The position numbers and the translations under genes are program-made. A model generated the notes under the pieces. It did no database searches. It was not told where the DNA came from and saw only the letters and a program-made list of their open reading frames with translations. Source: Bacteroidota bacterium (GTDB lineage Bacteria > Bacteroidota > Bacteroidia > Chitinophagales > Saprospiraceae). Taken from it: 33,018 nt of DNA. The stretch lies in assembly GCA_011321935.1 (NCBI GenBank), contig DROJ01000248.1:1-33018 (forward strand), given 5' to 3'. Below are positions 7,907 to 22,547 of the stretch, piece by piece. The first letter of the stretch is position 1. Each line of letters starts with the position of its first letter.

Positions 7907-9223
7907 ATGAATTTTTTTGAAAAAATATTTGGCGGAAGCGAGTTGCCCAAGCAGCCCGATATCCGCTTCGGGCGCTACTCCGACATCTACCACACTGCCA
8001 GCCAGGACGAGGCATTTGACCGGGCAGTGCGCGACTTTGAGGACGAGAAATACCTTTCGGCCTACCGCGCATTTTTTTATTATCTGCAAAATGAGGAAGA
8101 AGGCAACGTGCGGGTGTGGGACGAAGGTGGAGAGGTAAGGTTCGAGCTGTTGCAAGGGTCGAAAAAAGTGGTGGGCTACGGCAATGAAAAAAAACTGCAC
8201 GCCGAGGCCAAAGTGGCCCGGGCGAACAAACTAAAAGCAAGTTTCATGCGGCGGCTGCTCGACGAAAACCACGAACTAAAATACAGCCGGTTCACCCTCA
8301 ATGACGACGATGAAATCACCATCGTTTTTGATACTTACACCATTGACGGCTCCCCTTTCAAACTCTACGCTGCCCTCAAAGAACTGGCCACCCATGCCGA
8401 CAAGCAGGACGACATCCTGATAGACGAGTTTAAGCCCTTGAAGCAGATCGAACGCAACGTGAAAAGGGAGATACCGGAGCAAGAAAAAGAGATCAAATAC
8501 AGGTACATCGTTTCACAAATCCAGGCCGCTTTTGATGAAATAGACAAGGGCAAGCTCAACATCGCAAAATACCCCGTTGCCATCACCTACCTGCTGCTCT
8601 ACCTCTGTTACAAACTCGATTACCTCACCAAACCGGAGGGCTACATGATGGAGGCTTTGGAGCGGATCCACCGCCTCGCATTTGCCCAAGACGGCAAAAA
8701 CGCTGCGCAAAAAAACCAGGTTTTACGGAAAGAATTCCAAAAGCTGCTGGACCGGCCAAAGGAGAAATTTTTTGCGGAAATGTACGAGGTCAGGGCTACC
8801 TTCGGCATCACCGCACCCATTGACCACCAAAAGGTCGGCCTCATCATCGAGCAAGAACTGGCCAACATGAAATGGTACCAGGAACAAGGCCACAAAACCA
8901 TCGCCCTTGCCATTCCGGGATTCATTGCCGGCCGCTGCCTCTTCTATTTTGCTGTGCCAAAACCCGACAAAGAACTTTTCCACTTCCTGCTGGAAATTCT
9001 CGAAGCCGATTATTTCCGCCAACTCGGTTTCCACGTTTACAACAACAACGGAAAACTGGACCAACGGGGCATCAAAAGGCGTATCCGCGAAATCGCCGAC
9101 CGCTGCGAAACCTGCCACCCCAACCTCTCCCCCAACCTTAAAAAATTGAATTTCAACTCCCTCCCAGAATTTGCCGAATCCTACTGCTGGATGATAAAAG
9201 AACTGGACTTGACGGGGAATTGA
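7907..9223 (+). CDS. Conserved protein of unknown function, YbjN-like N-terminus possible
   Basis: A 438-residue soluble protein without signal peptide or membrane segments. I do not recognise it with certainty. Residues of about 30-165 (DEAFDRAVRDFEDEKYLSAY and later DEITIVFDTYTIDGSPFKLYAALKELA) look like the alternating helix/strand fold of YbjN or type III-chaperone-like domains; this is a weak inference. The rest (about 190-430) is helical, with CETCHPNL near 400 as the only Cys pair. Normal codon use argues for a real gene. It is convergent with the response-regulator gene, and its TGA stop (9221-9223) is the first unit of the repeat hairpin that separates them. Confidence 0.8.
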   Translation: MNFFEKIFGGSELPKQPDIRFGRYSDIYHTASQDEAFDRAVRDFEDEKYLSAYRAFFYYLQNEEEGNVRVWDEGGEVRFELLQGSKKVVGYGNEKKLHAEAKVARANKLKASFMRRLLDENHELKYSRFTLNDDDEITIVFDTYTIDGSPFKLYAALKELATHADKQDDILIDEFKPLKQIERNVKREIPEQEKEIKYRYIVSQIQAAFDEIDKGKLNIAKYPVAITYLLLYLCYKLDYLTKPEGYMMEALERIHRLAFAQDGKNAAQKNQVLRKEFQKLLDRPKEKFFAEMYEVRATFGITAPIDHQKVGLIIEQELANMKWYQEQGHKTIALAIPGFIAGRCLFYFAVPKPDKELFHFLLEILEADYFRQLGFHVYNNNGKLDQRGIKRRIREIADRCETCHPNLSPNLKKLNFNSLPEFAESYCWMIKELDLTGN

Positions 9224-9399
9224 ATGGTTGAATGGTTGAATGGTTGAATGGTTAAATGGCTGAATGGCTGAATGGCTGAATGGTTGACAAAAGACCCGAT
9301 GGATTCATTCCATCGGGTCTTTTGTCAACCATTCAGCCATTCAGCCATTCAGCCATTCAGCCATTTAACCATTTAACCATTCAACCATTCAACCATTCA
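9222..9399. repeat. Hairpin with 8-bp tandem-repeat arms between convergent genes
   Basis: The centre is a perfect inverted repeat with 49-bp arms (9255-9303 and 9309-9357) around a 5-nt loop. The outer arms are 8-bp units: GGTTGAAT and GGCTGAAT variants on the left, their complements on the right. From the loop outward the left has three ATTCAGCC-type units, one ATTTAACC and then ATTCAACC units; the right has four, two and two. The arms therefore mirror each other in sequence and order but differ in copy number, as after slippage. The TGA stops of both flanking genes (9221-9223 and 9397-9399) belong to the terminal units. Confidence 0.92.
9284..9328. terminator. Probable bidirectional terminator at the hairpin core
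   Basis: TTGACAAAAGACCCGATGGA pairs perfectly with the inverted sequence at 9309-9328, giving a GC-rich inner stem with A-tract and T-tract (AAAAGACCC and GGGTCTTTT) on either side. It is placed to end transcripts from both the 7907 gene and the 9397-10077 gene. Confidence 0.7.
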
Positions 9400-10077
9400 G
9401 CCCACAAACTTATACCCCACCCCTCTTACCGAGTGGAAATACTTTGGTTTGCGCTGGTCTTCCTCAAAATATTTACGGAAGGAAAGGATAAAATTATCAA
9501 TGGTGCGGGTAGAGGGGAACACGTCGTAGCCCCAAACGGATTGCAGTATTTGGTGCCGGGAGACCACTTCGTTTTTCCGGTCAATGAGCAGTTTCAAAAG
9601 CATTGCCTCTTTTTTGGTAAGCAGGAAATCCCCTTTCACCCCTGTCGCCTCGAAAGTCAGGAAATTGACTTTGTTGCCTCCAAATTCATAGATTTCCGGC
9701 GTGTTTTCCGGTGCCTTGCTGGTACGGCGGATGAGGTTTTTTACCCGCAGCAAAAGCTCTTCGAGGTGGAAGGGCTTGGTCAGGTAATCGTCTGCGCCTT
9801 TTTTCAGGCCGGCTATTTTGTCCAAAGCAGTGTCTTTGGCAGTGAGAAAAATGATGGGCACGTCCATGTTGGTCAGGCGCACCTGTTCGCATATTTGGAA
9901 GCCGTCCATTTCGGGGAGCATGACATCGAGCAGGAGGAGGTCGAAATGCTGCGCTCCAAAATACTTTACCGCATCTCTGCCATTGCCCGTGGCAACCACT
10001 TCGTAACCTTCCAGTTCGAGGTTCATTTTCACCACGTCCCGGATATTTTCTTCATCTTCAACCAGCAAGATTCTCAT
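9397..10077 (-). CDS. OmpR/PhoB-family response regulator
   Basis: A 226-residue two-component response regulator. The receiver domain (1-120) has the acidic pocket (Glu7, Asp8), the phosphoacceptor Asp51 (LLLLDVMLPEMDG), Thr79 and Lys101 (YLTKPF). The C-terminal winged helix (about 130-226) ends with TRTIDNFILSFRKYFEED and FHSVRGVGYKFVG, diagnostic of OmpR/PhoB DNA-binding domains. It is encoded 71 bp downstream of the histidine kinase on the same strand, so the two should form one system. Target genes are unknown. The stop codon falls in the outermost unit of the tandem-repeat hairpin. Confidence 0.95.
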   Translation of the reverse strand: MRILLVEDEENIRDVVKMNLELEGYEVVATGNGRDAVKYFGAQHFDLLLLDVMLPEMDGFQICEQVRLTNMDVPIIFLTAKDTALDKIAGLKKGADDYLTKPFHLEELLLRVKNLIRRTSKAPENTPEIYEFGGNKVNFLTFEATGVKGDFLLTKKEAMLLKLLIDRKNEVVSRHQILQSVWGYDVFPSTRTIDNFILSFRKYFEEDQRKPKYFHSVRGVGYKFVG

Positions 10078-13351: not shown

Positions 13352-13489
13352 ACTTCCAGCATTTAGAGGCGATGCCTTTGCGTTGGGGGAGTGGGGGGAA
13401 AGGCGTTGACTCGGAAAAAATATCTACGAGTCAACGCCTTTCCGCCCGCTGCCCCAACGCAAAGGCATCGCCTCTTAGGCGCTGGAAGT
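13352..13489. repeat. Very long hairpin with 62-bp arms
   Basis: Arms at 13352-13413 and 13427-13489 pair almost completely around a 13-nt AT-rich loop. Differences are a three-base block plus one insertion near the outer end (positions about 13361-13363) and three single substitutions in the G-rich middle. Unlike the neighbouring hairpins, the arms are not tandem repeats. It occupies most of the gap between the SOD stop (13509) and the Nif3 start (13319), both on the minus strand. There is no T-run next to the stem. Confidence 0.92.
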
Positions 13490-13508: not shown

Positions 13509-14138
13509 TCATTGCATCGCGCCCGGGTTGGCGTCGTTGTAGCGCTTGGTCACTTCCTTCCAATTGATAACGTTGAAGAAGGCAGACACATAGTCGGGGC
13601 GGCGGTTCTGATAGTTCAGGTAGTAGGCATGTTCCCACACATCAACACCGAGGATGGGCGTGCCCTTCTTCTCGGCCAAGTCCATCAGCGGGTTGTCCTG
13701 ATTGGGCGTGGAAGTGATGAACAGCTTGTCTTTGCTGTCGGTGCAGAGCCATGCCCAGCCAGAACCAAAACGGGTGGCCGCAGCAGTGGAAAACTCTTTT
13801 TTGAAATTTTCAAAAGAGCCAAAATCCCGCTCGATGGCCTTGCTGATGTTCATCTGTGCAGAAGGCTCGCCGCCGCCGTCGGGCGACATCACCGTCCAGA
13901 ACAGGGAGTGGTTGTAAAACCCGCCGCCGTTGTTGCGCACGGCAGTGCTGTATTTGGACACATTGGCCAAAATGTCTTCGATGGACTGGTCTTCGAGTTC
14001 AGTGCCAGCGATGGCTGCGTTGAGTTTGTTGGTATAGCCAGCATGGTGTTTCCCGTGGTGGATTTCCATGGTGCGGGCGTCAATGTGCGGCTCTAAAGCG
14101 GCAAAAGCATAGGGGAGGTCAGGAAGTTTAAATGCCAT
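13509..14138 (-). CDS. sodA: Superoxide dismutase, Fe/Mn family
   Basis: A 209-residue superoxide dismutase converting superoxide to oxygen and hydrogen peroxide, cytosolic (no signal peptide). The frame is open upstream to 14372, but the family start [11 protein letters not shown] is the ATG at 14138, preceded by AT-rich DNA. The four metal ligands are His27 (MEIHHGKHH), His77 (YNHSLFW), Asp166 and His170 ([13 protein letters not shown]). [10 protein letters not shown] resembles the NQDSPLM of manganese enzymes rather than the NAATP-type of iron enzymes, so manganese or cambialistic use is likely; the symbol is given on that basis. It stands alone between a long hairpin and the repeat island. 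Confidence 0.93.
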
Positions 14139-14340
14139 GTTTTTTATGAAATTTTTGAGGCAGTCCGGCTGGCAGTTTGCGTTTTTTTTCATAAAACCAC
14201 TTGCCTGCAAACAGCGGAACTGCGGAAGTTTTTTAAAAAGACTGCGCAAGATAGGCAGCTTGTGAATTATTTTGGAAACGTTGGGAAAGGTATTTTGTTC
14301 GGGGCTGCGAATCGAGGTTTTTTTAGAGGAAAACAGGCTC

Positions 14341-14660
14341 CAGTTGACCCTTTCAGCAGGCTGCCTTGTCATCCGCTTTAGCGGAACTGCGGCGTCTGAT
14401 GTGCGGAAAACACAAAACCCCAGTTTCCCTTTTCAGCAGGCTGCCTTGTCATCCGCTTCAGCGGAACTGCGGCGTCTGGTGTGCGGAAAACTCAAAACTC
14501 CAGTTTCTCTTTTCAGCAGGCTGCCTTGTCATCCGCTTTAGCGGAACTGCGGCGTCTGGTGTGCGGAAAACTCAAAACTCCAGTTTCTCTTTTCAGCAAG
14601 CTGCCTTGTCATCCGCTTCAGCGGAACTGCGGTGTCTGGTGGGCGGCCAAGCATGGCTTC
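14341..14660 (+). repeat. 80-bp tandem repeat array, left block (4 units)
   Basis: Units start at 14341, 14421, 14501 and 14581, exactly 80 bp apart, with a few substitutions each; the fourth diverges after about 14646. Each unit contains TTTTCAGCAGGCTGCC, then the palindrome CCGCTTTAGCGG (or CCGCTTCAGCGG), then AACTGCGGCGTCTGG and GTGCGGAAAAC. A short remnant, AGCGGAACTGCGG, lies at 14213-14225. Because 80 is not a multiple of 3 and stops are rare, long spurious open frames cross the array. Confidence 0.95.
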
Positions 14661-14667
14661 ACAAATG

Positions 14668-14715
14668 ACGTTGCGGTTCCGCTAAAGCGGATGACAAGGC
14701 AGCCTGCTAAAAGGC
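14668..14715 (-). repeat. Inverted partial copy of the 80-bp unit
   Basis: This stretch is the reverse complement of the unit core: GGTTCCGCTAAAGCGG then ATGACAAGGCAGCCTGCT. Together with the left block it makes a large inverted repeat whose right arm ends about 90 bp before the GIY-YIG start. Confidence 0.88.
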
Positions 14716-14805
14716 AAGATCGGAATTTTGTGTTTCCCGAAGGGGAAATTCGTATTTAACTACTATTTTTACACGAAATTATTTTCTCCACAAAAAACAA
14801 TTACT

Positions 14806-15180
14806 ATGAAAAAGGCTTACTCCTTCTACGTTTACATCACCACCAATCCAAGAAAAAGCACTCTGTACACCGGCATGACCAACAACCTCATGCGGAGAAC
14901 GATTGAACATTTCCTCAACAGGGGCGACAAAGAATCCTTCGCAGGAAGATATTATTGCTACAACGTTGTCTGGTTCGAGTGGCATCAGTACGTGTTCAAC
15001 GCTATCGCCAGAGAAAAGCAAATCAAAAAAATGCCCCGTCCGGAGAAAGAGGCACTGATCTCGAAAATGAATCCCAAATGGGGATTTTACAACTGTGAAA
15101 TATGCGGCATGTGGCCGCCGAACGAGGAATTATTGGCTGCTATAAAAAAAGCTAAAAACGATGGAGCGGGCAATAAATAA
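14806..15180 (+). CDS. Single-domain GIY-YIG nuclease inside the repeat array
   Basis: A 124-residue protein of the GIY-YIG superfamily (UvrC N-terminal/YhbQ-like). The two halves of the motif are YVYI (8-11) and LYTGMT (20-25), followed by Arg30/Arg31, EHF (34-36) and the probable metal-binding Glu70 in AREKQIKK, so the catalytic set appears intact. NPKW (89-92) ends the core. A short tail holds CEIC (97-100), a Cys pair, and a Lys-rich end. The ATG at 14806 matches the family start (MKKAYSFYVYI) better than the in-frame ATG at 14728. No specific target domain is fused. 80-bp repeat units lie on both sides, the next one starting 9 bp after the stop. Single-domain GIY-YIG genes are frequent in Bacteroidota, but their roles are mostly unknown. 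Confidence 0.88.
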   Translation: MKKAYSFYVYITTNPRKSTLYTGMTNNLMRRTIEHFLNRGDKESFAGRYYCYNVVWFEWHQYVFNAIAREKQIKKMPRPEKEALISKMNPKWGFYNCEICGMWPPNEELLAAIKKAKNDGAGNK

Positions 15181-15188
15181 CAAAACCC

Positions 15189-16144
15189 CAACTCTCCCTT
15201 TCAGCAGGCTGCCTTGTCATCCGCTTTAGCGGAACTGCGGCGTCTGGTGGGCGGAAAACTCAAAACTCCAGTTTCTCTTTTCAGCAGGCTGCCTTGTCAT
15301 CCGCTTCAGCGGAACTGCGGCGTCTGGTGGGCGGAAAACTCAAAACTCCAATACCACCTTCCAGCAGGCCGCCTTGTCATCCGCTTTAAAGGAACTGTGG
15401 TGTAGCGGGAGAGGTAAACATCTTTGCAGGCCAGACGCCGCAGTTCCGCTAAAGCGGATAGCCTGTCCCGAAAATCGGGAACAAAACACAGTGGAGGCAG
15501 CTTTGCGCAGTTGATCCCCTTTCGGAAAACTCAAAACTCCAATGCCCCTTTTTGCAAGCTCCCTTGTCATCCGCTTTAGCGGAACTGCGGCGTCTGGTGT
15601 GCGGAAGTTTTTGCCCCCCGATATAACGCAGTTCCGCTGAAGCGGATGGCCTGTCCCGAAAATCGGGAACAAAACACAGTGGAGGCAGCTTTGGGCAGTT
15701 CATCCCCTTTCGGGAAAAGCAGGCTCCAGTTTCTCTTTTCAGCAAGCTGCCTTGTCATCCGCTTTAGCAGAACTGCGGCGTCTGGTGTGCGGAAAACACA
15801 AAACTCCAGTTTCTCTTTTCAGCAGGCTGCCTTGTCATCCGCTTTAGCGGAACTGCGGCGTCTGATGTGCGGAAAACACAAAACCCCAGTTTCTCTTTTC
15901 AGCAGGCTGCCTTGTCATCCGCTTTAGTGGAACTGCGGTGTCTGGTGTGCGGAAAACACAAAACTCCAGTTTCTCTTTTCAGCAGGCTGCCTTGTCATCC
16001 GCTTTAGCGGAACTGCGGCGTCTGGCGGGCGGAAAACTCAAAACTCCAATGCCCCTTTTTGCAAACTGCCTTGTCATCTGCTTTAGCGGAACTGCGGCGT
16101 CTGGTGGAGGCAGCTCCGGGCAATTGCTTCCCCTTTCGGGAAAT
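15189..16144. repeat. 80-bp repeat array, right block, with inverted and composite units
   Basis: Forward units start at 15189, 15269, 15349 (partial), 15539 (partial), 15727, 15807, 15887, 15967 and 16047 (partial). Inverted half-units lie at about 15430-15463 and 15627-15650 and pair with the preceding forward units (for example CCGCTTTAGCGGAACTGCG at 15581 with its complement near 15627-15646). Each inverted half-unit is followed by a second shared module of about 60 bp (CCTGTCCCGAAAATCGGG, then ACAGTGGAGGCAGCTTTG) at 15464-15525 and 15650-15712; its tail recurs at 16105-16140. The block thus mixes tandem and inverted copies of two modules. Confidence 0.95.
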
Positions 16145-16205
16145 ACCGGCCCCTGCAAATGACAAAAGACACCTTTTCCCAAATCCCCAATACCCGCCCA
16201 AACCT

Positions 16206-16213
16206 TACCTTTG
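16206..16213 (+). promoter_or_regulatory. Probable -7 element for fumC
   Basis: TACCTTTG fits TAnnTTTG and lies 35 nt before the ATG at 16249, outside the repeat array. It supports the internal start and argues against the upstream in-frame ATG at 16159, which would place the promoter inside the gene. A -33 element is not clear. Confidence 0.45.
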
Positions 16214-16248
16214 CCGCTCCTTATCCAATTATCACAAACCACCTACAA

Positions 16249-17658
16249 ATGACATTCAGAAAAGAAAAAGACTCGCTCGGCATTGTCAAAGTACCTGCCG
16301 AAAAATATTGGGCAGCGCAGACGCAGCGCTCCAAAGAAAATTTTAAAATCGGTGGGCAGCGCATCCCTATCGAGGTGATCCGCGCTTTTGCCATCCTCAA
16401 AAAAGCGGCGGCCCAGACCAACGCCGAGCTTGGTGTTTTGCCGAAGGCGAAAGCAAAATTGATCGGAAAAGTATGCGATGAAATTTTGAAAGGGAAGCTC
16501 GACGACCAGTTCCCCCTCGTGGTGTGGCAGACGGGCAGCGGCACGCAGTCAAACATGAACGCCAACGAGGTGATTGCCAACCGGGGCCACGTCATGAAAG
16601 GCGGCAAACTGACCGACGTAAAAAAATACCTCCACCCCAACGACGACGTGAACAAATCGCAGTCCTCCAACGACACCTTCCCGACGGCCATGCACATCGC
16701 CGCCTACACCATATTAATGGACACCACCCTGCCCGGCCTCGAAAAGCTGCGGGACACACTGAAAGCCAAGTCCAAAAAATTCATGAAAACAGTGAAAATT
16801 GGCCGCACCCACCTCATGGACGCCACGCCGCTGACCCTCGGCCAAGAAATCTCCGGCTACGCCGCCCAACTCGATCAAGGCATCAAAGCCATCCGCAATA
16901 CGCTGAAGCACCTCTCGCAACTCGCCCTCGGCGGAACAGCGGTCGGTACCGGCCTGAACACCCCTCCCGGCTACGCCAAAAACGTGGCCACTAAAATTGC
17001 TAAACTGACGGGGCTGCCCTTCGTTACTGCGCCCAACAAATTTGAGGCGCTCGCCTCGCACGACGCCATCGTGGAGGCGCACGGGGCGCTCAAAACAGTG
17101 GCCTGTTCCCTTTTTAAAATAGCCAACGACATCCGCCTTTTGGCCAGCGGCCCGCGCTGCGGCATCGGCGAAATATCCATCCCCGCCAACGAACCCGGCT
17201 CGTCCATCATGCCGGGCAAGGTGAACCCCACCCAATCGGAGGCCATGACAATGGCGATGGCGCAGGTGATCGGCAACGACGTGGCCATCAACGTGGGCGG
17301 CATGAACGGCCATTTTGAACTCAATGTTTTCAAGCCGATGATGATCTATAATTTCCTGATGTCTGCCCGGCTGATCGGCGATGCCTGCGTGAGCTTCAAC
17401 GACAACTGCGCCGCCGGACTCGAACCGAACCTGCCGCGCATCAAGCAAAACCTCGACAATTCGCTGATGCTGGTGACGGCGCTCAATACCCACATCGGCT
17501 ACGACAAGGCTTCGGTCATTGCCAAAAAGGCACACAAGGAAGGCACGACGCTGAAACAGGCGGCGCTGAAACTTGGCTATTTGACGGAGGAGGAATTTGA
17601 TAAATGGGTAAGGCCGGAGGACATGATCGGAGGATTGAAAGGGAAAAAGAAAAAATGA
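16249..17658 (+). CDS. fumC: Fumarate hydratase class II
   Basis: A 469-residue class II fumarase, the oxygen-stable, iron-free enzyme interconverting fumarate and malate in the TCA cycle. The start at 16249 ([11 protein letters not shown]) matches the family N-terminus. Active-site segments are all present: [12 protein letters not shown] (93-104), [17 protein letters not shown] (129-145), [10 protein letters not shown] (185-194, with the catalytic His188) and the fumarase/aspartase signature [11 protein letters not shown] (317-327). Close relatives (aspartase, argininosuccinate lyase) are excluded by the strongly fumarase-like context of these motifs. It is monocistronic, between the repeat island and a hairpin terminator. 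Confidence 0.97.
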
Positions 17659-22383: not shown

Positions 22384-22547
22384 TTTTTGTGCCTGCTCAG
22401 GTGCGTGTGCGTCGGTAGCACAGCGTTCACGCTGTCCCGGTCACAGGCGTTTACGTCTGTGCATAAATAAAACGACGTAAACGTCGTTTACCGGGACAGC
22501 GTGAACGCTGTGCTACCAATGCCCAAAAGACCTGAGCAGTCACAAAT
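22384..22547. repeat. Nested-palindrome element, copy 2, within a wider inverted repeat
   Basis: The core 22414-22517 shares its ends (GGTAGCACAGCG and CGCTGTGCTACC) with the element at 1979-2093. Its palindromes run ACAGCGTTCACGCTGT, ACAGGCGTTTACGTCTGT, AACGACGTAAACGTCGTT, ACAGCGTGAACGCTGT: the inner two are swapped relative to copy 1, as for the reverse orientation. The outer pair differs from copy 1 by a T-to-C change on the left and the matching A-to-G on the right. Outside the core, CTGCTCAGGT at 22393-22402 pairs with ACCTGAGCAG at 22530-22539, extending the structure. Confidence 0.85.

Follow-up and report, generated by a model that had tools for sequence, protein, structure and literature searches.

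The window, a stretch of 33,018 bp from the draft genome of a Saprospiraceae bacterium, contains the gene of a single-domain GIY-YIG nuclease (P0001, 124 aa) surrounded by a 1.8-kb array of repeats, between two genes that, from a reading of their sequences, we take to be those of superoxide dismutase (SOD) and fumarase (Table 1). The layout described in the first-pass annotation, an intact gene with tandem and inverted units of ~80 bp on both sides and a repeat right behind the stop, is borne out. Searches with a core and with a longer pattern together yield 16 units, 13 forward and three inverted, the tandem runs are spaced 80, 80, 80, then 80, 80, then 80, 80, 80, 79 bp, and similarity between units restarts at the stop codon itself, with an arm from 15180.

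The core CCGCTTTAGCGG is present in the window in eight exact and seven one-mismatch copies (0.23 expected by chance), and the longer pattern TTGTCATCCGCTTTAGCGGAACT matches 14 times at up to three mismatches (chance 0). In 14 of the 16 units the sequence is TTGTC-AT-CCGC-TTTA-GCGG-AA-CT or a close variant of it, and the TTGTCAT tag is likewise found in 14 units; the two without it are both inverted (core at 15446 and 15634) and both carry an additional palindromic module, CCTGTCCCGAAAATCGGGAA. The core, previously described only as palindromic, is indeed so and can be specified as a 4-bp stem-loop, CCGC-TTTA-GCGG; in the unit the stem is the 5-bp TCCGC/GCGGA, bordered on its outer side by an A-A mismatch. 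Taken alone, the window unit folds no better than its shuffles (z -0.36), and two other Bacteroidota units behave likewise, compared with a z of -5.5 for a gonococcal unit with an 8-bp stem. A search of the window against Rfam gave no matches, and an exact 24-mer of the repeat is absent from the viral contigs searched.

Table 1. Features of the locus (positions within the window)
Feature	Position	Strand	Remarks
SOD gene (presumed), left neighbour	13509..14138	-	in G410, G411 and G402, homologous sequence precedes fumarase
Gene and array stretch without counterpart in congeners G410, G411, G402	14300..16248	.	
Left run, four 80-bp units	14325..14649	+	TTGTCAT tags at 14366, 14446, 14526, 14606
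Inverted tagged unit, facing last forward unit of left run	14660..14739	-	tag-core 14675-14697
Single-domain GIY-YIG nuclease gene, P0001, 124 aa	14806..15180	+	intact ORF, Pfam, AlphaFold2, Foldseek
Three units immediately 3' of gene stop	15181..15409	+	tags at 15214, 15294, 15374
Inverted untagged unit with palindromic module	15439..15529	-	
Forward unit	15523..15599	+	tag at 15564
Second inverted untagged unit, same module	15627..15717	-	95% to 15439-15529
Right run, five units	15711..16106	+	tags at 15752, 15832, 15912, 15992, 16071
Fumarase gene (presumed), right neighbour	16246..17658	+	

P0001 matches GIY-YIG (PF01541; 49.6 bits, cut-off 22.6) as its sole Pfam domain, so that no extra DNA-binding module is recognised in it, and its score against TIGR01453, the group I intron GIY-YIG homing endonuclease family, is 20.3 bits, below the cut-off of 56.05. 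Residues Y21, G23, R31 and E70 are invariant in 17 sequences. The AlphaFold2 model is confident (pLDDT 92.3, pTM 0.83), and Foldseek ranks UPF0213 protein BH0048 (1zg2, E 3.4e-3) first and Slx1 next, with no match at E 0.001. PHROGs and PADLOC hold no family for P0001, which is presumably of the COG2827/UPF0213-like kind. Its best match among the named genomes listed is in a Saprospirales MAG (65%), and a homologue in the same-genus genome G061 is 63% identical. The earlier impression that the enzyme is maintained holds for the family: dN/dS had a median of 0.194 over 59 pairs, none of them at or above 1, and the four pairs with dN ≤0.05 gave 0.017, 0.031, 0.023 and 0.038, all these ratios being rough because dS was ≥0.94 in the pairs listed. 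Judged by these ratios, the P0001 family is under purifying selection. By eye, four of 26 gene copies inspected are clearly truncated.

Stretches upstream of fumarase were compared in seven congeners, three of which (G410, G411 and G402) keep the SOD neighbour. Homology to G410, whose fumarase is 90% identical to that of the window, ends at 14299 and resumes at 16249, with a different gene in between; homology to G411 ends at 14169 and resumes at 16247, while the last piece shared with G402 ends at 14279 and homology resumes at 16261. Neither a P0001 relative nor the core was found at the SOD-fumarase loci of these three, a single 21-residue match to P0001 at the G410 locus (E 0.075) being taken as chance, and gene and core are absent too from the four other congener loci, in which SOD is not in the stretch examined. 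A copy of the gene at this locus without the array, which would have spoken against a link between them, was thus seen in none of the seven. Going by these alignments, gene and array were probably gained or lost as one block, and the absence of both from three syntenic congeners makes gain the simpler of the two. The sequence CAGCGGAACTGCGG, part of the repeat unit, is also found at 14212-14225 in the SOD upstream region and is partly present in G410 too; it may therefore have served the array as a native seed or target. A near-perfect inverted repeat with 49-bp arms (94%) lies shortly beyond the SOD 3' end, at 13365-13475. Further palindromic sequences of the window are a family, GGTAGCACAGCGTTTACGCTGTCCCGG, at 1979-2093 and again 20 kb away at 22406-22525, and a pair of 84-bp inverted arms of TTGAATGG-like short repeats at 9220-9402.

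Repeats around homologous genes in other genomes

A gene was scored as having both-side repeats when its upstream and downstream flanks, 800 bp each, shared a repeat (blastn, E≤1e-4). In a named-genome set, made up of the best 80 of at least 566 relatives of P0001, this was so for 61 of the 73 testable relatives, compared with 24 of 426 other ORFs at the same loci (Fisher test, 5e-46); the remaining seven of the set were untestable, and nearby ORFs (22/166) were counted separately. The association persisted against a stricter control of ORFs flanked on each side by a gap of ≥150 bp (8/38; Fisher test against the relatives, 2e-10), and short control ORFs of 80-160 aa had both-side repeats in 14 of 129 cases. 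Among 150 genomes of the family, where relatives of P0001 are patchy (24/150), both-side repeats flank 14 of 24 gene copies including that of the window, versus 13 of 237 other ORFs, and 13 of 23 copies once the window is set aside (Fisher test, 2e-9). This family sample comprises 26 matches, window included, after two gene fragments in G091 were merged; two were untestable near contig ends, and ORFs less than 800 bp from the gene (8/45) were kept apart. In a class sample of 29 loci, the window (L177) left out and two loci skipped at contig ends, the figure was 22 of 27.

The same holds further afield. Fourteen loci were picked for taxonomic spread from the 32 records found in a plasmid collection, representing Pseudomonadota and one cyanobacterium (Rhizobiaceae, Azospirillum, Sphingomonadaceae, Neisseria, Aeromonas, Photobacterium and Planktothrix), and 11 of them have both-side repeats. 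By eye, stem-loops tagged with CGTCAT or TGTCAT surround most of the 14, the homologue of N. gonorrhoeae, for example, being flanked by CGTCATTCCCGCGCAGGCGGGAATC; the tag is absent within 500 bp at L234 and L235, and at L237 and L238 the tags are unlike repeat units. Four plasmid-labelled records (NZ_CP119142.1, NZ_CP119140.1, NZ_AP026896.1 and NZ_CP069303.1) are 2.2-4.9 Mb long and chromosome-like. As these flank comparisons show, the same arrangement of gene and repeat, with other repeat sequences, recurs across Bacteroidota and is also found in Pseudomonadota and one cyanobacterium. Many relatives thus have repeats of their own around them, alike in design but different in sequence, and this suggests that enzyme and repeats work as a pair. 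Homologues in contexts free of repeats, named beforehand as evidence against such a system, do occur: 12 of the 73 testable relatives in the best 80 of at least 566 have no both-side repeats, and the flanks of the closest homologue found, in G061, share no repeat, one tagged hairpin being visible by eye downstream.

In genomes with several copies of the gene, a copy's own two flanks match each other in 27 of 36 cases, versus eight of 62 comparisons between flanks of different copies (Fisher test, 1e-9; 36 loci in 14 genomes, with regions of G313 and G150 and a two-copy region of G360 left out). In most cases tested, paralogues within one genome therefore carry different repeats, and this contrast between own and cross flanks means that general repeat richness is no explanation. 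Chance repeat richness was accordingly rejected on two grounds, the same-locus ORF controls and the paralogue comparison. At L278 (G150:C5) the GIY-YIG gene is itself tandemly duplicated, the unit being 599 bp, and in the genome of L269 (G313:C31) the gene has 18 matches, of which three lie on a single contig in a span of ~7 kb.

The repeats have a common design, namely a [C/T]GTCAT tag, a covarying short stem-loop and a CT tail. In the family sample, a comparison of 8-mers brought out words resembling GTCATTCC, and in the named-genome set TGTCAT was found in 71 of 80 loci versus 178 of 811 control segments. Up to 400 bp from the gene, [CT]GTCAT has a density of 5.60 per kb, compared with 0.78 per kb beyond 1.5 kb, and 73 of 81 loci, window included, have the motif near the gene. 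Hairpins with stems of ≥6 bp, tested first, showed no excess near the gene (11/356 tags near vs 19/500 far). An exploratory test, devised after that one and after inspection of the sequences, demanded the tag, a stem of ≥5 bp that opens with AT, and a CT tail; 145 of 355 near tags and 45 of 499 far ones qualified (shuffled, 0 and 1). The stems are short, and at the 4-bp setting they fall into nine different complementary types, which indicates that they covary. Edges of repeat blocks also tend to coincide with the tag: 69 of 122 lie within 12 nt of one, against a mean of 10.0 for random positions in the same flanks, and none of 500 randomisations reached as high a value.

At the level of whole genomes the coupling is looser. 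A profile search found the gene in 165 of 247 class genomes, and a pattern with four stem types, which does not cover the window's own repeat, was found in 61 of the 247 (the reversed control gave one match overall); the gene is present in 54 of the 61 repeat-positive and 111 of the 186 repeat-negative genomes (odds ratio 5.2, p 2e-5). Seven of the 61 have no profile match for the gene at E≤1e-6, three of them in spite of 11-23 repeat copies, which makes for a loose coupling of gene and repeat. In six of these seven exceptions a GIY-YIG match lies in an ORF of 602-626 aa, presumably UvrC by its length, two have one in an ORF of 457-460 aa as well, and three have a GIY-YIG match below the Pfam cut-off. 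Such genomes suggest that the repeats may persist after loss of the gene, or manage without it. Repeats abundant in genomes lacking the gene, another finding named in advance as unfavourable, are thus seen in part: an exact 18-mer of the window repeat, CCGCTTTAGCGGAACTGC, is confined to the source genome (one of 150 family genomes) and is absent from G061, and the seven class genomes carry repeats of the kind without a gene match. A repeat dimer of Spirosoma is dispersed: three Spirosoma genomes have 80, 54 and 29 matches to it, five other genomes none (L163 left out; a palindrome can score on both strands).

Dispersed copies in the source genome

The core is present in 80 exact copies in the 6.74-Mb draft genome from which the window comes. 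Read by eye, the list resolves into 29 forward-reverse pairs 38-68 bp apart, eight copies in the array and 14 single ones. The dispersed dimers lie inside MITE-like palindromes (~200-270 bp) whose ends are GTATCATTTTAAT...ATTAAAATGATAC. Of the 29 pairs, 28 were surveyed: 22 have both MITE-like ends, five have one end and a contig end, and one has no left end. At L304-L306 the outer ends are present and the core is absent; overall, the MITE-like palindromes of this genome (G000) are ~150-270 bp long and are found with and without the REP core (e.g. L001, L003, L008, L304-L307). The MITE-like ends are absent from the array itself, and the genes flanking one dispersed dimer, L008, have no match in congeners. 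The location of the dimers within MITE-like ends means that dispersal in the source genome need not involve P0001, and an ordinary transposase could have spread them. This weakens one half of the nuclease-driven repeat system proposed at the outset, the spread by the nuclease in this genome; the other half, the association of nuclease and repeat, is general and far above controls.

A RAYT was also considered as driver of the window repeat in the source genome and was rejected, the four Y1_Tnp loci holding no core. Three of the four (L174-L176) have both-side repeats of their own, of another kind, so that the genome may have an arrangement of the RAYT kind in addition to the GIY-YIG one.

Known systems and explanations of the locus

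The Ssn family, reportedly described by Chenal and colleagues in 2025, is said to consist of site-specific GIY-YIG nucleases that cut single-stranded DNA at cognate sequences, the Neisseria Ssn reportedly acting on the repeated NTS. Ssn and its sites reportedly limit or steer DNA uptake and recombination in Neisseria. The N. gonorrhoeae homologue of P0001, which we assume to be Ssn, is 40% identical to it over 84 aa, with a profile match of 99.8% probability, and sits among CGTCATTCCCGC..GCGGGAATC repeats. P0001 is like Ssn in that it is a single-domain GIY-YIG protein with conserved catalytic residues, has a repeated candidate cognate sequence around its gene, and shares the genome with further copies of that repeat. 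It differs in belonging to a Bacteroidota subfamily with a C-terminal CGxWPP stretch, and the repeats differ in forming an 80-bp tandem array and in bearing the tag TGTCAT, not CGTCAT. If Ssn is as described, the pairing of enzyme and repeat is already known and the window holds a Bacteroidota variant of it. This analysis adds three things: a connection with the CGTC/TGTC REP class, the finding that paralogues have private repeats, and the block formed by gene and array.

Similar to what is seen with RAYT (TnpA_REP), REP and REPIN sequences, the enzyme gene is flanked by its own tagged palindromes and inverted pairs are dispersed; however, the fold of P0001 is GIY-YIG, PF01541 alone having matched, and not Y1/HUH, and the window tag is TTGTCAT (GTCAT) and not GTAG. 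With GIY-YIG homing endonucleases of the I-TevI type P0001 shares the catalytic domain and a patchy distribution, but its gene is surrounded by repeats and not by an intron-bearing gene, and TIGR01453 stays below cut-off.

The CGTC/TGTC-tagged REPs have a tag CGTC or TGTC, a stem opening with AT, a short loop, a tail and a tendency to form dimers, and are known from Neisseria (dRS3), Rickettsia, alphaproteobacteria and Bacteroidetes, among others; dRS3 repeats are classed there as CGTC-1 (Di Nocera 2013, PMC3733652). Judged by eye, CGTCATTCCCGCGCAGGCGGGAATC of N. gonorrhoeae resembles these dRS3 repeats. In the window, TGTC directly precedes AT in 14 of 16 units, and the core is dispersed mostly as inverted dimers as in that class, although inside a larger MITE-like element. 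The stem of the class is 8-9 bp long with complementary AT at positions 1-2, that of the window unit is 5 bp; the tail to be set beside that of the class is CT in the tag-stem units counted here. A GIY-YIG gene adjoins the repeats in our case, whereas PMC3733652 reports no dedicated transposase for these REPs. The design shared by the repeats agrees with the CGTC/TGTC REP class, and the window unit works like it, with no claim to strict membership. A literature search whose coverage excluded most subscription papers yielded, among the papers listed, no link between GIY-YIG enzymes and REPs, CGTC repeats or dRS3, and the passages of PMC1564403 consulted mention neither COG2827 nor UPF0213 nor YhbQ.

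The best reading of these data would be a nuclease similar to Ssn, together with its cognate REP, in an organisation reminiscent of the RAYT "REPtron". On balance, we favour the view that P0001 is a site-specific GIY-YIG nuclease targeting the [C/T]GTCAT stem-loop repeat around it and that the two form a REPtron-like unit. P0001 would recognise its hairpin when this is single-stranded, be it in replication, in transformation or in a cruciform, and cut at the tag or close to it; neighbouring copies would then serve as templates for recombination or repair, by which units would be duplicated, resulting in tandem arrays and inverted pairs. Such a unit would work like RAYT and REP, with a GIY-YIG enzyme in place of the usual one. 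Recognition and cutting are suggested by the private pairing, the position of the tag at block edges and the fold of the enzyme. That the enzyme also spreads repeats to new sites is a further step, which we regard as rather doubtful, and both-side repeats could also arise by local duplication around any small mobile gene, without recognition.

The private pairing also bears on the alternative that the GIY-YIG gene is a homing-endonuclease-like parasite, cutting solely for its own copying, with the REPs as a harmless landing site spread by other means. This would agree with the seven of 61 repeat-bearing genomes without a profile match for the gene, with the truncated copies, and with the lack of a counterpart of gene and array in three syntenic congeners; a shared landing site does not predict the mostly private repeats of paralogues, however, and the low dN/dS of close pairs also argues against it, making it unlikely overall. 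The MITE-like elements invite another explanation, by which an ordinary transposase spread the repeat as the centre of a MITE, the array being a by-product of recombination and the enzyme a bystander. Most dimers do lie between both ends, and some elements have the ends and no core, but the array has no such ends and the association of gene and repeat recurs in many other genomes with other repeats, so we give this explanation less credence still. Several other palindromes are present in the window; in view of the same-locus controls and the paralogue comparison, the idea of a small gene that happens to lie in a generally repeat-rich intergenic region is nevertheless extremely improbable.

It may also be that a host has domesticated the pair, enzyme and sites serving to limit or steer DNA uptake and recombination and the repeats being kept for use and not as selfish elements. 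N. gonorrhoeae, whose homologue sits among dRS3-type repeats, is naturally transformable, the family is under purifying selection, and relatives of the predicted fold include the structure-specific nuclease Slx1. At the same time, the gene is patchy in the family and the window repeat is absent from the congeners searched, though three Spirosoma species share theirs, and we hold domestication to be very unlikely here.

Returning to the reading of a nuclease with its cognate repeat, a wider form of it is conceivable, if somewhat short of an even prospect: single-domain GIY-YIG nucleases would be the missing dedicated partners, possibly the mobilisers, of CGTC/TGTC REPs, a second world of enzymes and REPs parallel to that of RAYTs and GTAG-REPs, in which each copy would read its own repeat through the shared GTCAT tag and a private stem-loop. 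REP-like palindromes are common among bacterial repeats. Those of the CGTC/TGTC class are left without an enzyme in PMC3733652, and the counts presented here offer a candidate partner. As most of the loci tested have their own version of the repeat adjoining the gene, many natural pairs exist on which the question can be tested, and if the proposal is true, they would be a natural set of enzymes and sites showing how a nuclease of ~100 residues reads a hairpin.

GIY-YIG domains were also noticed in other settings. At L088 (G120:C13) one lies near the start of a 640-aa ORF, by eye continuing into a helicase-like protein. The source genome has a second single-domain GIY-YIG gene, split over the overlapping contig ends C314:5369-5557 and C584:1-98 (L011, L013); it follows tRNA-Val, and behind it, by eye, tRNA and terminator recur as a degenerate copy.
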